A DNA stretch of 64,000 nucleotides, from contig NZ_JAXCIL010000002.1 in assembly GCF_034387475.1 (NCBI RefSeq), positions 372,001 to 436,000 of the forward strand, read 5' to 3'. Of the stretch, positions 39,045-43,335 are shown in pieces (the first letter of the stretch is position 1; every line of letters begins with the position of its first letter). The position numbers were made by a program, and so were the translations under genes. Origin of the DNA: Pseudomonas sp. Teo4. Lineage in GTDB: Bacteria; Pseudomonadota; Gammaproteobacteria; Pseudomonadales; Pseudomonadaceae. The notes beneath the pieces were generated by a model. The model was given only the letters and a program-made list of their open reading frames with translations. It did no database searches and was not told the origin of the DNA.

Positions 39045-39575
39045 ATGAGCAACGTTGAACTGACCGATGTGAACACCTTGCGCAAGCGGGCCCGCCAGCA
39101 TGTCGAGCAAGGTGCCGTGACCGAGGGGTACCAGGCTGACCGCGAAACAATCCTGCGCCTGCTCAACGAGTCGCTGGCCACCGAGATCGTCTGTACCTTG
39201 CGCTACAAGCGGCACTACTTCATGGCCATTGGTATCAAGGCCGGTGTGGCGGCGGCGGAGTTTCTGGAGCATGCCAATCAGGAAACCGAACATGCGGACA
39301 AACTGGCTGAGCGGATTGTGCAGTTGGGGGGTGAGCCTGATTTCAATCCAGATAACCTGACGAAAAACTCGCATGCTCAGTATGTGGCGGGGAAATCGCT
39401 GAAAGAGATGGTGTTGGAAGACTTGGTGGCTGAACGGATTGCTATCGACAGTTACCGGGAGATCATTCAATACATCGGTGACAAAGACCCAACTACGCGG
39501 CGTATCTTTGAAGATATTCTGGCGCAGGAAGAGGAACACGCTGACGATATGTCGGACTTGCTGCAAGGTCTTTAA
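39045..39575 (+). CDS. Ferritin-like protein, bacterioferritin/Dps type
   Basis: A 176-residue four-helix ferritin-like protein. Likely di-iron ligands are in ESLATEIVCTLRYKRHYF, EFLEHANQETEHADKLAERI, LVAERIAIDSYREI and QEEEHADDMSDLL, matching the E...ExxH...E...ExxH arrangement. It probably stores iron or protects DNA from iron-driven oxidation. A similar gene lies near osmE in P. aeruginosa (PA4880). The ATG at 39045 follows TTGGAGA; an upstream ATG four codons earlier is less likely. Confidence 0.87.
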   Translation: MSNVELTDVNTLRKRARQHVEQGAVTEGYQADRETILRLLNESLATEIVCTLRYKRHYFMAIGIKAGVAAAEFLEHANQETEHADKLAERIVQLGGEPDFNPDNLTKNSHAQYVAGKSLKEMVLEDLVAERIAIDSYREIIQYIGDKDPTTRRIFEDILAQEEEHADDMSDLLQGL

Positions 39576-39585
39576 GCTTCAAGCT

Positions 39586-39615
39586 TTTGCTTTGCTTTGC
39601 TTTGCTTTGCTTTGC
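39586..39615. repeat. Six copies of TTTGC
   Basis: A perfect pentanucleotide tandem repeat beginning 10 bp after the ferritin-like gene's stop and directly touching the large inverted repeat. A degenerate version (GCAGA words) flanks the other end of that element near 40291-40303. Confidence 0.95.
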
Positions 39616-39617
39616 TC

Positions 39618-40288
39618 TTGCTTCTAGTGCGCGCTAGTTCAGGCGCCACAAATTGCGACGTCAGGAGGCCGAGCGGAGGTCTTGCGGAGGGAGGTGACGG
39701 CCATGGATGGCCGTCAAGCGCTGCGGCCCAGGATGGGCCGTACAGCGCGGTCCTCCCGGGAGCAAGACCGGAGCGAGGGAACCCCGAAGCGCAGCGTAGG
39801 GGCCGGATGTAGGAGCCAGACTTTTTTGGTTACTTTTTGGGGCGTTTGCCAAAAAGTGACCCGCTGTAAGAGCGGAAAGGTGATTAAGCGTCGCCTTGGC
39901 AAATGGATATGCTTGCAAATTTAAAAACCAACTTCAAAACAAAAAACAAAAAACAAAAAACAAAAAACAAAATTAAGCGTAGGCATCTATACAGCGTGAA
40001 TATCCATTTGCCATGGAGGCGCTTATTCACCTTTTCGCCTTTACGGCGACCTACTTTTGCTCTTGGGCAAAAGTAGGCAAAAACCGCTCGCTCCTACATC
40101 CGGCCCCTGCGCTTCGCTCCGGGGTACCCTCGCTCCGGTCTTGCTCCCGGGAGGACCGCGCTGTACGGCCCATCCTGGGCCGCAGCGCTTGACGGGCATC
40201 CATGCCCGTCACCTCCCTCCGCAAGACCTCCACTCGGCCTCCTGAAGTCGCAATTTGTGGCGTCTGGACTATCGCGCACTAGAAGCAA
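39618..40288. repeat. Large inverted repeat of two diverged multi-hairpin elements
   Basis: Arm 1 (39618-39910) and arm 2 (40000-40288) are inverted, imperfect copies of about 290 bp around an A-rich 89-bp centre. Each arm is a row of small hairpins. Examples are GACGGCCAT-GG-ATGGCCGTC (39696-39715) against GACGGGCAT-CC-ATGCCCGTC (40191-40210), and CCGCT-GTAAG-AGCGG (39861-39875) against TCGCC-TTTAC-GGCGA (40035-40049). Arms differ in sequence but keep pairing. Short ORFs in both arms encode the same peptide type (PGGPRCTAHPGPQRLT), probably as a by-product. No transposase is present. The gap 39576-40339 has no other gene signal. Confidence 0.9.
39940..39967. repeat. Four copies of CAAAAAA in the centre of the inverted repeat
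   Basis: A perfect heptanucleotide tandem repeat in an extremely A-rich stretch (39926-39974), in sharp contrast to the GC-rich genome around it. Its length is likely to vary between isolates. Confidence 0.95.
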
Positions 40289-40339
40289 AAGCAGAGCAGA
40301 GCAAGGACCTATACATGTGCAGTTCGCTGGGGATGATCG

Positions 40340-42406
40340 CTATTTCTTACCCTTCACCGCCGTAGGCGCCTTCCCTGCCTTCATCTGCTGCAACAACGGC
40401 GTACATTGATTCGGCTCATCACCACTACTCGGAGCAATCAAAGCCAACAACCCTGCCGCCGGCCCCGCAACAACCCCAAGCGCCACCATCCCCGCCCCAC
40501 GCAGCGCCAACGGCACCGCCTGCACCCCCGCACTGGGCTTGGCAAACGGCCCGCGCACGTAAAGCGGCGAGCGCAGCGAGAACAACCGCAAGCCCTTGGA
40601 CTCCGGCGTAATCTTCAAATCGAGCTGTTCACTGGCAAAATTGGCCGTGCCATCGATATAGATGATCGCGTTCTCGGTATCGAAGATGAACAAACGCGTC
40701 GTCGCCAGACCATTCTTGATCCCCACATCCGCCGCCGCACAGTTGATCTTCACGTCCTCATCGCCGAACAACTTGCCAATCACGTAGTTACCCACATTGA
40801 GCCCGGCGATTTCCATCAGGCTGCGGCTGATCGCGCCATCGTTGATCAGCATGCGCAAGTCACCATTGGCAGTGCCCAGCAAAGCCGCTATCGAGTTGCC
40901 ACGGCCACTGATGTCCGCATCACCGTTCAGCTCACCAAAACTGGTCTGCATCGGCGCGAAGCTGGGGAACAGCTGTTTGAGCTTGAACCCCCTGGCAGTC
41001 AGCTTGGCGCGCCCCTGCAGAGGCACGTTGCGACCGTCCAGGCGAATATCGGATGCCAGGTTGCCGCCCGCCACACCAAATCGCAGCGGCTCCAGGCGGA
41101 GCAAACCATCGTCGAGAATCACGTGGGCGGACAAATCAGTGAAGGGCAATTGCGCACTGTGGACAATCCGCTTGCCGCTGAAGGTGACGTCGGCATCCAT
41201 GGCACGCCAGCGCTCGGTACGAAACTCCTCCACAGGCAATACCTTGCCCGAGGGCTGTTTGCTGGCCCCGCCCCGGGCCTTTTGCTCGGCGTTGGAGTCA
41301 GCACCAATCAGTGGAGCCAGGTCCTTGAACAACAGCTGGTTGGACACCAGGTTCCCGGATAGCTTTGGCCGGGGCTGACTGGCGACAAAAGCCAGGTCGC
41401 CATGGATGTCGCTGTCACCGATCTTGCCGTTGAAATCCTGGTAATGGAACGTCGCACCATCCGGCGCATGCAGGTTGGCGCTCAGGCGGCCGTCAGTGGA
41501 ATACGCCGGGGTATCCGGCAGGGTTACGCCAGTCAGCGGATAAAGGTTACCCAGGCTTGCGCCGGACAAGCGCAGACGCAAATCCAGGGCTCCCAGATTG
41601 CGCGGGTCGGTCAAGGTACCCGCCAGCACCACATGGGTGTCGGCAATGCGCACGTCGGCTTGCAGCGGGAACGGCTGGCTGGCGTCCTGCAAGGCCAGCA
41701 GACCGCCAATCTTGCCCGTGCCAGACACCGGTTGACCCTTGTAACGGCCCTGGGCCTTGAGGCCGAACGCGTAATCCTGGGCGCCGCCTGCCTTCTCGGC
41801 ACGGGCTTTGCCGACGATGTCACTGAACGGGATCGGCTTGCCCAGCGGGTCGATCTGCACCTTCATGCTGGTTTTCAGGGTCTGATCGTCGACACTGACA
41901 TTACCTTGGTCGAATCCGATGGCTCCGATATCCAACTGCCAGCTGGACGGCGCTTCGCTTTCATCCTTTGGCCCGAAGTCGAAATTCCAGTTGGCACGGC
42001 CGTCGGCCAAGCGGGTGAGGCTGGCGGTGGGCTTGGTCAGGTCGATACGGGGGATGACGATCTGCTGGAAGATCAAAGGCAGCGGCGACAGACGGAACTC
42101 CACACGCTCCAGACCAACCATCTTCGGCTCCTTCAACCAGTCTGGGTTACCCAGAGTCAGGTCTTCAGCGATGAAGCGCGGCCATGGTACCCAGGCCCGC
42201 CAGCCACCCTCTTGCGGCTCGGTGCGCCACTGCACGGCCAGGTTGCCATTGATCGCGAAGGGCCGATGCAGGGCTGCGGAAACCTTCTCGTTGAGCAGTG
42301 GTTTGACACGATTCCAATCGAACGTGGCAATCACCACCACGATGATCGCCAACACGGTCAAAAGGCTGCTGAGGGTCCAGACGAGTATTCTGGCGGGACG
42401 CGTCAT
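40340..42406 (-). CDS. AsmA family protein
   Basis: A 688-residue envelope protein. A membrane anchor lies at about residues 8-28 (WTLSSLLTVLAIIVVVIATF). A long periplasmic beta-rich region of the AsmA/VPS13-like lipid-transfer type follows (FDWNRVKPLLNEKVSAALHR at the start; LMEIAGLNVGNYVIGKLF near the end). AsmA-like proteins help move phospholipids to the outer membrane. The tail is Lys-rich. The frame is open to 42514, but the ATG at 42406 (MTRPARILVW) begins the anchor normally. It faces the inverted repeat at its 3' end. Confidence 0.88.
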   Translation of the reverse strand: MTRPARILVWTLSSLLTVLAIIVVVIATFDWNRVKPLLNEKVSAALHRPFAINGNLAVQWRTEPQEGGWRAWVPWPRFIAEDLTLGNPDWLKEPKMVGLERVEFRLSPLPLIFQQIVIPRIDLTKPTASLTRLADGRANWNFDFGPKDESEAPSSWQLDIGAIGFDQGNVSVDDQTLKTSMKVQIDPLGKPIPFSDIVGKARAEKAGGAQDYAFGLKAQGRYKGQPVSGTGKIGGLLALQDASQPFPLQADVRIADTHVVLAGTLTDPRNLGALDLRLRLSGASLGNLYPLTGVTLPDTPAYSTDGRLSANLHAPDGATFHYQDFNGKIGDSDIHGDLAFVASQPRPKLSGNLVSNQLLFKDLAPLIGADSNAEQKARGGASKQPSGKVLPVEEFRTERWRAMDADVTFSGKRIVHSAQLPFTDLSAHVILDDGLLRLEPLRFGVAGGNLASDIRLDGRNVPLQGRAKLTARGFKLKQLFPSFAPMQTSFGELNGDADISGRGNSIAALLGTANGDLRMLINDGAISRSLMEIAGLNVGNYVIGKLFGDEDVKINCAAADVGIKNGLATTRLFIFDTENAIIYIDGTANFASEQLDLKITPESKGLRLFSLRSPLYVRGPFAKPSAGVQAVPLALRGAGMVALGVVAGPAAGLLALIAPSSGDEPNQCTPLLQQMKAGKAPTAVKGKK

Positions 42407-42747
42407 TGCGTGAGTCACCTGACGGCATGGCACAAAACAAGCACAACAGTGGCACTTAGTAATTCGGACTAATGAAAACCCGCAGGGTTTTATCGGCGCG
42501 GCCATGATAACCAAGTTTTTCCTGGCGGCCGGCTCAGCTTTTGGTCTGGACGCCCCCTTCGCACACCGACGGAAACACAGTAGCCAATTGCCTTCTAATG
42601 ACCTGAAACAACCGCACTAGAGCCACTGCAAGTCTCTATCAATCCTGTCGATTGTCACCATTACCCTTATGAACTTCTCTCTGGCGTTACCAAGCGTAGC
42701 ATTGGCTTCGTACCCACTTTTCAGCCCCCGAGAGGAGCAACCCAATC
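42407..42747. other. Divergent intergenic region before the repeat-protein gene
   Basis: 341 bp between the AsmA gene and the 15-residue-repeat gene, on opposite strands, so it should hold both promoters. GAGAGGAG lies 12 bp before the right-hand ATG. I see no convincing promoter boxes, hairpins or repeats in it. Confidence 0.6.
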
Positions 42748-43335
42748 ATGAAACGCCATCTGCTGACCCTGACCCTGTCCATCCTTGCAGCCAACGCTTT
42801 CGCCATGCCAGCTGACGATCAGCACCTGACCGCTGAATCTCGCTCCAGCGCCGCTGAAATCGCCCAGCCTCTGAAAACCCTGGCAGAAGGTGGCGCTGAC
42901 CGTCTGCAAGAACGCGCTGGCCGTGTCGCTGAAGGTGGCTCGGATCGCCTGATCGAACGCACTGGTCGCGTCGCCGAAGGTGGCTCGGATCGTCTAATTG
43001 AACGCACTGGCCGCGTCGCTGAAGGTGGCTCGGATCGTCTGATCGAGCGTACTGGCCGCGTCGCTGAAGGTGGTTCGGATCGTCTGATCGAACGCACTGG
43101 CCGCGTCGCTGAAGGTGGCTCGGATCGTCTGATCGAACGCACTGGCCGCGTCGCTGAAGGTGGCTCGGATCGTCTGATCGAACGTACTGGCCGCGTTGCC
43201 GAAGGTGGCTCGGATCGTCTGATCGAACGTACTGGCCGTGTAGCCGAAGGTGGCTCGGATCGTCTGATCGAACGCACTGGCCGTGTAGCCGAGGGTGGTT
43301 CGGATCGCCTGGTCGAAATCAGCCGTGTGAGCTGA
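42748..43335 (+). CDS. Secreted protein of ten 15-residue tandem repeats
   Basis: A 195-residue protein with a signal peptide (MKRHLLTLTLSILAANAFA) and a short linker to residue 45. Ten 15-residue repeats make up the rest. Copies 2-9 are identical as protein (AEGGSDRLIERTGRV); copy 1 and copy 10 are altered. The repeat is amphipathic, charged and Gly-Gly containing. Similar Pseudomonas proteins have been labelled phage infection protein, but I know of no evidence for that and give no function. It ends at a strong terminator 50 bp on. Confidence 0.88.
   Translation: MKRHLLTLTLSILAANAFAMPADDQHLTAESRSSAAEIAQPLKTLAEGGADRLQERAGRVAEGGSDRLIERTGRVAEGGSDRLIERTGRVAEGGSDRLIERTGRVAEGGSDRLIERTGRVAEGGSDRLIERTGRVAEGGSDRLIERTGRVAEGGSDRLIERTGRVAEGGSDRLIERTGRVAEGGSDRLVEISRVS
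42883..43332 (+). repeat. 45-bp tandem repeat, ten copies, within a gene
   Basis: Ten in-frame units of 45 bp; the middle eight differ only at a few third positions. Near identity at DNA level suggests recent expansion or gene conversion. Copy number could change by slippage without breaking the reading frame. Confidence 0.95.

Follow-up and report, generated by a model that had tools for sequence, protein, structure and literature searches.

An inverted-pair repeat of Pseudomonas with a TwoAYGGAY core and putative Rsm/CsrA-binding loops

The window, that is, the whole 64,000-nucleotide stretch of DNA that was analysed, contains a pair of long inverted arms lying between two convergent genes, which code for a ferritin-like protein and an AsmA-family protein. 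The arms had been placed by an earlier note at 39618-39910 and 40000-40288, and both the coordinates and the sequence were found to be correct. They share about 86% identity in an arm-to-arm comparison, and the inverted repeats I1 (39602-39837/40069-40304, 92%) and I2 (39852-39910/40000-40058, 80%) run through them. The features of the locus are the following:

39045..39575, + strand: ferritin-like gene, outside the element; 42 bases from its stop to arm 1
39586..39623: (TTTGC)7.4, a simple repeat placed at the outer left (5') end of arm 1; different units there in other copies
39618..39910, + strand: arm 1, subtype A, full-length
39666..39780, + strand: P0, long closing stem whose internal loops are rich in purines (GA), for example GGTCTTGC (39678-39685) with GCAAGACC (39762-39769)
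39693..39752, + strand: match of arm 1 to Rfam RF01731 TwoAYGGAY, 42.7 bits (gathering score 43)
39695..39716, + strand: P1 hairpin of arm 1, loop ATGGAT (39703-39708), an ANGGAN loop of Rsm/CsrA type
39718..39748, + strand: P2 hairpin of arm 1, loop AGGAT (39730-39734), containing GGA and equal to ANGGAN minus one base
39782..39802, + strand: P3 hairpin of arm 1, CCCC...GGGG
39828..39861, + strand: P4 hairpin of arm 1, GGTTACTTTTTGG/CCAAAAAGTGACC, including a U-G pair
39861..39875, + strand: P5 hairpin of arm 1, CCGCT/AGCGG
39911..39999: linker of 89 bases separating the 3' ends of the arms, with (AAAACAA)5.3 at 39936-39972
40000..40288, - strand: arm 2, subtype B, full-length
40035..40049, - strand: P5 hairpin of arm 2, which reads TCGCC/GGCGA in the sense of the arm
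40050..40077, - strand: P4 hairpin of arm 2, CCTACTTTTGC/GCAAAAGTAGG
40154..40213, - strand: match of arm 2 to RF01731 TwoAYGGAY, 43.0 bits (gathering score 43)
40158..40188, - strand: P2 hairpin of arm 2, with AGGAT (arm sense) as its loop, 40172-40176
40190..40211, - strand: P1 hairpin of arm 2, with ATGGAT (arm sense) as its loop, 40198-40203
40340..42514, - strand: AsmA-family gene, outside the element; 51 bases from its stop to arm 2

Elsewhere in the window, an open reading frame at 42748-43335 contains a 45-base repeat in 9.6 copies (42886-43317) that encodes a repeated RTGRVAEGGSDRLIE peptide and has no Pfam match.

The arms are predicted to fold into several hairpins, and in arm 1 the closing stem P0 surrounds P1 and P2 to form a three-way junction. 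Each arm folds more stably than its shuffled versions (z of -5.4 for arm 1 and -6.1 for arm 2, with none of 200 shuffles equalling either), and a transcript spanning both arms favours one long hairpin (-552 kcal/mol vs about -139 and -135 for the single arms). Three compensatory differences between the arms had been described in the earlier note, namely GACGGCCAT/ATGGCCGTC vs GACGGGCAT/ATGCCCGTC, CCGCT/AGCGG vs TCGCC/GGCGA and GGTTACTTTTTGG/CCAAAAAGTGACC vs CCTACTTTTGC/GCAAAAGTAGG, and all of them are present in the sequence as given. The covariance model that it had proposed was also built, and strong covariation was found in both alignments used, one of 46 full arms from this genome and its relatives and one of 43 core sequences. 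RNAalifold predicted 47 pairs on the 46 arms, 39 of them with a double change that keeps pairing. In the core alignment, whose structure was written by hand after inspection of the RNAalifold output, double changes are kept at 35 of 43 pairs; 92.7% of cells are paired compared with 73.2% in shuffles, and double-change cells number 327 compared with 94.5, and none of 500 shuffles attained any of these three values. These shuffles do not preserve the relatedness of the sequences, but sliding the pairing partners by 1-3 columns left just 36-59 double-change cells. Compensatory change is thus far above chance once many copies are aligned. In the three outer helices of the core, each of the 12 pairs shows change at both of its positions, with 98.8% of cells paired and GA-type internal loops between them as read by eye, and the weakest helix is P3, with 79.2% of cells paired. 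Since the core is nearly invariant across the 20 copies in this genome, the evidence from covariation comes mostly from other species.

Over 44 of the 47 pairs in the 46 arms we counted 1849 Watson-Crick, 102 G-U and 12 A-C combinations, after exclusion of three poorly kept pairs that would add 18 G-U and one A-C. The roughly ninefold excess of G-U over A-C fixes the strand that folds, although it cannot separate RNA from single-stranded DNA, because G-T pairs are tolerated in DNA. All these data indicate that the fold of one strand is under selection.

Paired changes of this kind could also have arisen from template switching in quasi-palindromes, or from gene conversion between arms, with no selection on structure at all. 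The arms are indeed nearly palindromic and have simple repeats of variable unit at their flanks, and the near-identical core of the 20 arms in this genome suggests homogenisation. However, such correction should make stems perfect, and the U-G pair of P4 stays U-G in 30 of the 46 aligned arms; in addition, the purine internal loops persist, G-U exceeds A-C by 102 to 12 and the loops stay fixed while the stems around them change. We therefore regard this origin of the paired changes as improbable.

A short peptide conserved in its own right was also considered, as both window arms share an open frame (peptide MDGRQALRPRMGRTARSS...) and the window frame gave 35 matches among about 5.8 billion protein sequences, a small set of annotated hypothetical proteins. 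The frame is not kept in the family, however. The ATG in P1 is absent from 18 of 46 arms and a stop falls before residue 40 in 11 of 46, the stops being scattered; of 64 insertions or deletions in the core, 61 have a length that is not divisible by three and break the frame. Likewise, the differences between arms A and B over 136 ungapped bases are spread evenly over codon positions (5, 4 and 3). The conserved peptide was accordingly rejected, and that it is the selected feature is hardly credible to us. With strong covariation on one side and a reading frame that is not kept on the other, the suggestion in the earlier note of selection on structure, and not on the short open reading frames, is borne out.

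The core of the element, as judged from its sequence and predicted fold, corresponds to the Rfam family TwoAYGGAY, in which a long stem leads to a three-way junction with a pair of hairpins that have GGA loops. The window arms score at about the gathering threshold of this model, and in other species members of this element family score as high as 65 bits. Both hairpins of AYGGAY type are found in each window arm, P1 with ATGGAT and P2 with AGGAT, one base short; the P2 loops of this genome are the shortened form, in which the first N before GGA is absent. In the 46-arm alignment the P1 loop columns read C-A-(N)-G-G-A-N-G in 45 arms, of which 7 lack the first N, and GGA is present in the P2 loop of all 46, of which 8 have the shorter AGGA. 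Both loops are fixed while the surrounding stems vary, and the variation within them lies mainly at the two N positions, which are those that Rsm proteins tolerate. Sequence and predicted fold together thus give a pair of GGA/ANGGA sites exposed in hairpin loops. Loops of the (A)NGGAN type are the CsrA/RsmA motif, and we regard the two loops as putative Rsm sites. In this regard, csrA homologues are present in all eight element-bearing genomes that were checked, four of them in this genome. The TwoAYGGAY model also matches the antisense strand of many arms (L028, L030, L031, L035, L049, L050 and others), so the annotated strand of TwoAYGGAY may be wrong in places. Between 37 and 43 kb of the window, no Rfam match to RsmX, RsmY or RsmZ was found with E values up to 1. 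Matches to Rfam microRNA families and to rli43 fell far under their gathering scores and were taken as chance hits on a long palindrome.

Several published observations bear on these loops. RsmQ binds GGA and ANGGA, and RsmE binds ATGGA/AGGGA forms, in both cases in hairpin loops (PMC9928087). TwoAYGGAY was described in 2010 (Weinberg et al. 2010), and a table in that paper places it in human gut, gammaproteobacteria and Clostridiales (PMC2864571). By 2014 its function was given as unknown, binding by CsrA had been proposed and its outer stem was described with tandem GA (PMC4333381). In P. putida KT2440, 75 RNAs were bound by RsmA, RsmE and RsmI, and among them is a "long palindromic region downstream PP_3547", which is intergenic, together with intergenic stretches adjoining copies of ISPpu8; the pull-down libraries were without strand specificity, and in the accessible text the palindromic region is left by its authors as an open question (PMC7937890). 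This Rsm-bound palindromic region plausibly belongs to the element family described here, because the latter likewise consists of intergenic palindromes that draw insertions of IS elements.

The window copy is one of many. A DNA search of this genome gave 25 matches, 20 of them long, and the covariance model found exactly 20 arms, which form ten inverted pairs, all tail-to-tail, with their 3' ends pointing inward. In six of the ten pairs the arms are close, and in the other four they are 1.4-2.8 kb apart and enclose transposase genes of IS481 or IS110 type. Taking the window arms as types A and B, four of the five other close pairs are A+B, and the fifth (L064) joins B to an intermediate arm. 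The outer ends of the copies run into simple repeats whose unit varies from copy to copy.

The repeat family extends across the genus, as the search of the arms against Pseudomonas genomes suggested in the earlier note makes clear. Our own covariance model matched 170 of 199 sampled genus genomes at E <= 1e-5 and 29 had no match, in a survey that scored at most 16 candidates per genome, so that copy counts are lower bounds, and whose E-values are rough. Fuller searches gave 45 matches in genome G015, 31 in G017, 15 in G010 and 35 in G030. An exact 28-base stretch of the core is present in P. shirazensis, P. peradeniyensis, P. soli, P. mosselii and Pseudomonas sp. RIT623. With the Rfam TwoAYGGAY model (E <= 0.001), 21 of the 57 genomes searched as relatives match, this one included, compared with none of 14 control genomes. 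In a class-wide sample, 22 of 274 genomes match at E 1e-4, again including this one, and several have 4-9 matches; GGA is present in both loops of all 28 arms aligned from 19 loci, six of the arms being from named Pseudomonas, although the arms were found with models that themselves favour GGA loops. Head-to-head pairs of TwoAYGGAY-like cores were also seen outside Pseudomonas, in other gammaproteobacterial families (L141, L139 and L150); inverted repeats flank the core pair in L141 and L139, and in L150 one of the two cores, the second, is only a weak match (E 0.009). Plasmid and phage records searched with the window element gave no DNA hit at E 1e-5.

The arrangement of the arms in relatives suggests how the family spreads. 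Among 58 sampled loci, which are the best matches with about 1.5 kb per side, some of them cut by contig ends and two representing the same place, 27 are head-to-head pairs, 25 are single arms and six are arranged otherwise. The idea that the element is used singly elsewhere and doubled here was therefore only half right, as single arms do occur elsewhere (25 of 58 loci) and doubling is nothing special to this locus, all ten copies in this genome being inverted pairs. In G017, all 11 head-to-head pairs that were fetched join two subtypes, in either chromosomal orientation; these subtypes were read from printed sequences and match lengths, clustering on whole-length distances having only split off two short fragments. 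Because pairs combine two arm subtypes, the inverted pair appears to be what spreads. The arm 3' ends are the outer ends of the G017 units, and 117 distinct arm ends, counted as those whose match extends to the last positions of the model, share GGATAT(G/A)(T/C)AC-C, with conservation dropping sharply after base 6. These conserved 3' ends (terminus sequence GNGTACATATCCGTT) resemble mobile-element termini. The family shows some traits of a MITE: it is multicopy, and in other species it has sharp GGATATG-AC-C ends (117 arm ends; 11 G017 units), which are not seen in the window form. The latter is inside-out relative to the G017 units, with its 3' ends inward and its outer ends in simple repeats. 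As the linkers of G015 and of this genome are partly alike by eye, we considered that the tail-to-tail form may derive from a tandem unit or from circular permutation.

Comparison of the locus with relatives also points to insertion. No element lies beside the ferritin-like gene in 29 relatives read, out of 73 with a match to this gene (two of those read end just behind the gene). The gap between the ferritin-like and AsmA genes is 48-453 bp in the 25 relatives that have the gene pair vs 771 bp here, and in the nearest relative it is 48 bp and has by eye a GC-rich terminator-like hairpin that is not preserved here. No target-site duplication was seen by eye in the 11 G017 copies. An autonomous transposase inside the wide pairs was considered and rejected, given that the enclosed genes differ (IS481, IS110, IS3-like by eye and DUF6124), and no common mobiliser was therefore identified. 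The alternatives put forward in the earlier note, a non-autonomous mobile element or a structured RNA, both appear to be right, the first from the genus-wide repeat and the second from the TwoAYGGAY core.

Some further features of the copies were observed. Short-unit repeats (GCTCTT, GCTTTG, TGCTGTT, GCTCTC, GCTCTG) occupy fixed places, at the outer ends of the copies here and in the middles of G017 units (L163, L166, L167 and L169), and their unit and length vary from copy to copy, as well as from one end of a copy to the other. The elements are recurrent landing places for sequences of IS481 type (L056 3506-4630, L057 3761-4885, L059 3982-5106) and of IS110 type (L057 5200-6375, L058 4174-5352, L096 1780-2808), and the left arms of the four wide pairs break near the same point, at arm position 219-228 in the P4 hairpin. 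Small genes of the DUF6124 family (PF19619) lie near elements in 12 of 79 loci, six of these 12 being among ten hand-picked loci; they are between the arms in L097, L098, L100, L101 and L102 and beside them in L031, L032, L070, L071, L072, L094 and L103. DUF6124 was rejected as cargo of the element, since it is itself multicopy (29-31 matches in each of four genus genomes), and no paper naming it was found in the open-licence literature. Lastly, P. peradeniyensis, P. soli and P. mosselii appear by eye to share a head-to-head pair at one locus (L152, L155 and L158), so that some insertions may predate these species.

How the arms might be transcribed was approached from sequence and gene context. 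A consensus scan of 39560-40345 found no sigma-70-like promoter. The genes next to the ten copies in this genome, called with a codon-composition script and read by eye, are convergent in four cases, co-directional in three and divergent in three (three, four and three if a small open reading frame at L060, set aside as a non-gene, is counted), so not all copies can be transcribed in sense from a neighbour. Single arms in co-directional contexts show no sense bias (3 sense vs 4 antisense), and of the 19 single arms for which a gene was called on either side, 11 sit in a convergent context.

These contexts bear on the idea that the element is a passive palindrome serving as a bidirectional 3' end, either as a terminator or as an exonuclease barrier between convergent genes, a role that has been considered for other intergenic repeats of Pseudomonas. 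The position of the window copy between convergent stops fits this idea, as do the 11 of 19 single arms and the tail-repeat-tail bias reported for intergenic repeat families (Silby et al., PMC2718517). Against it, terminator-like sites are at shuffle level (2 found vs 1.6 expected), six of the ten copies here are not between convergent genes, as read by eye, and the fixed GGA loops are left unexplained. A 3'-UTR or terminator role was thus rejected as a general explanation, with only 4 of 10 copies between convergent genes and single arms without orientation bias, and there seems to be little chance that it accounts for the family.

The strongest rival is a DNA-level role of the fold in transposition, where the fold would be selected as single-stranded DNA or as a cruciform recognised by a transposase, the GGA loops being transposase contacts and the RNA having no function. 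The element is mobile with sharp ends, no promoter was found, single arms lack a sense bias and, G-T being tolerated in DNA, the G-U excess does not discriminate, all of which this explanation accommodates. However, the pattern of the loops matches the Rsm/CsrA consensus and varies mainly at its two N positions, the core is already an RNA family known outside Pseudomonas, and the same loops occur in other gammaproteobacterial families, even if the model used favours such loops. Furthermore, a palindromic intergenic RNA, plausibly of the same family, was found with three Rsm proteins in P. putida (PMC7937890). On this balance we consider a purely DNA-level role rather unlikely.

We therefore favour, as the probable explanation, that the window feature is one instance of a mobile, non-autonomous element and that the RNA of its arms binds Rsm proteins. 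Two inverted arms of different subtype would each encode the same structured RNA, made of the long closing stem, the three-way junction, the pair of ANGGAN/AGGAN hairpins and three further hairpins. Read-through from a neighbouring gene, here the ferritin-like or the AsmA gene, would make the arm a 3'-UTR RNA that folds during its synthesis, and a dimer of the RsmA/CsrA family could then clamp the two GGA hairpins. The outcome would be Rsm docking sites placed genome-wide, which may tether Rsm to host mRNAs, titrate Rsm or allow Rsm to sense the upkeep of the element, whose movement presumably relies on a transposase acting in trans. Several results count against this explanation: the promoter scan was negative, single arms have no sense bias, the gene contexts do not allow sense transcription of every copy, a transcript of both arms favours one long hairpin, and some loops, among them the P2 loops here, lack the N before GGA.

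The inverted pair recalls other mobile repeats. REPINs are REP doublets moved by RAYT, non-autonomous and intergenic, in which the inverted pair is the spreading unit, and each REP is a short hairpin, just one, bearing a GTAG motif. The element described here resembles REPINs in that the inverted pair is the mobile unit (11 of 11 G017 pairs of two subtypes; A+B in 4 of 5 other close pairs here), but unlike REPs its arms are about 290 bases long with several hairpins, and it has no known transposase partner. A comparable distinction holds for the Rsm decoys of Pseudomonas, RsmX, RsmY and RsmZ, which are few genes under GacA-controlled promoters. PMC7937890 mentions upstream GacA sites for both rsmY and rsmZ, and in RsmX/RsmY/RsmZ and CsrB/CsrC the sites bound by CsrA/RsmA are GGA (ANGGA) loops of hairpins (PMC7366521). 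The arm hairpins have such GGA (ANGGA) loops, yet unlike these decoys the element has no promoter that we could find, two loop sites per arm and many mobile copies. As in TwoAYGGAY, tandem hairpins with AYGGAY-type loops lie inside a longer stem with GA-rich internal loops; in contrast to RF01731, which spans 168 positions and describes the core only, the unit here is a multi-hairpin arm of about 290 bases, repeated, mobile and often in inverted pairs of two subtypes. The intergenic P. fluorescens repeats R6, R26, R30 and R200 (120-352 bp; Silby et al. 2009, PMC2718517) are also similar, and one or more of them may be this element family; an Rsm role is not proposed for them in the accessible text of PMC2718517. 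The KT2440 regions downstream of PP_3547 and at ISPpu8 are, like the element, long, palindromic, intergenic and IS-linked, and they are bound by RsmA, RsmE and RsmI in vivo (PMC7937890); ISPpu8 is of the IS4 family (PMC3056050), whereas the insertions in this element family are of IS481 and IS110 type.

The core family, the suggested link to CsrA and mobile inverted pairs in the form of REPINs were already known. New, as far as searched, is that the TwoAYGGAY core lies within a mobile, often inverted-pair, multi-hairpin element in most sampled Pseudomonas and in other Gammaproteobacteria, with its Rsm-type loops fixed; in the open-licence literature we found no paper joining TwoAYGGAY with a Pseudomonas repeat or mobile element. 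If TwoAYGGAY and the KT2440 palindrome are both this mobile family, one explanation would cover the two. More tentatively, and as a possibility that we consider less likely than not, this could be a transposable element family that spans the Gammaproteobacteria and has a docking site for CsrA/RsmA built in, a dispersed and mobile Rsm sponge that either wires host mRNAs (here those of the ferritin-like and AsmA genes) into the Gac/Rsm network or has its own upkeep controlled by the level of Rsm. If this is true, each jump would add 2-4 new Rsm-type hairpins to genomes with tens of copies, making this a transposable element that carries, tens of times over, a site bound by a global post-transcriptional regulator, which would bear on the buffering of Rsm levels and on the persistence of many intergenic repeats in Pseudomonas.
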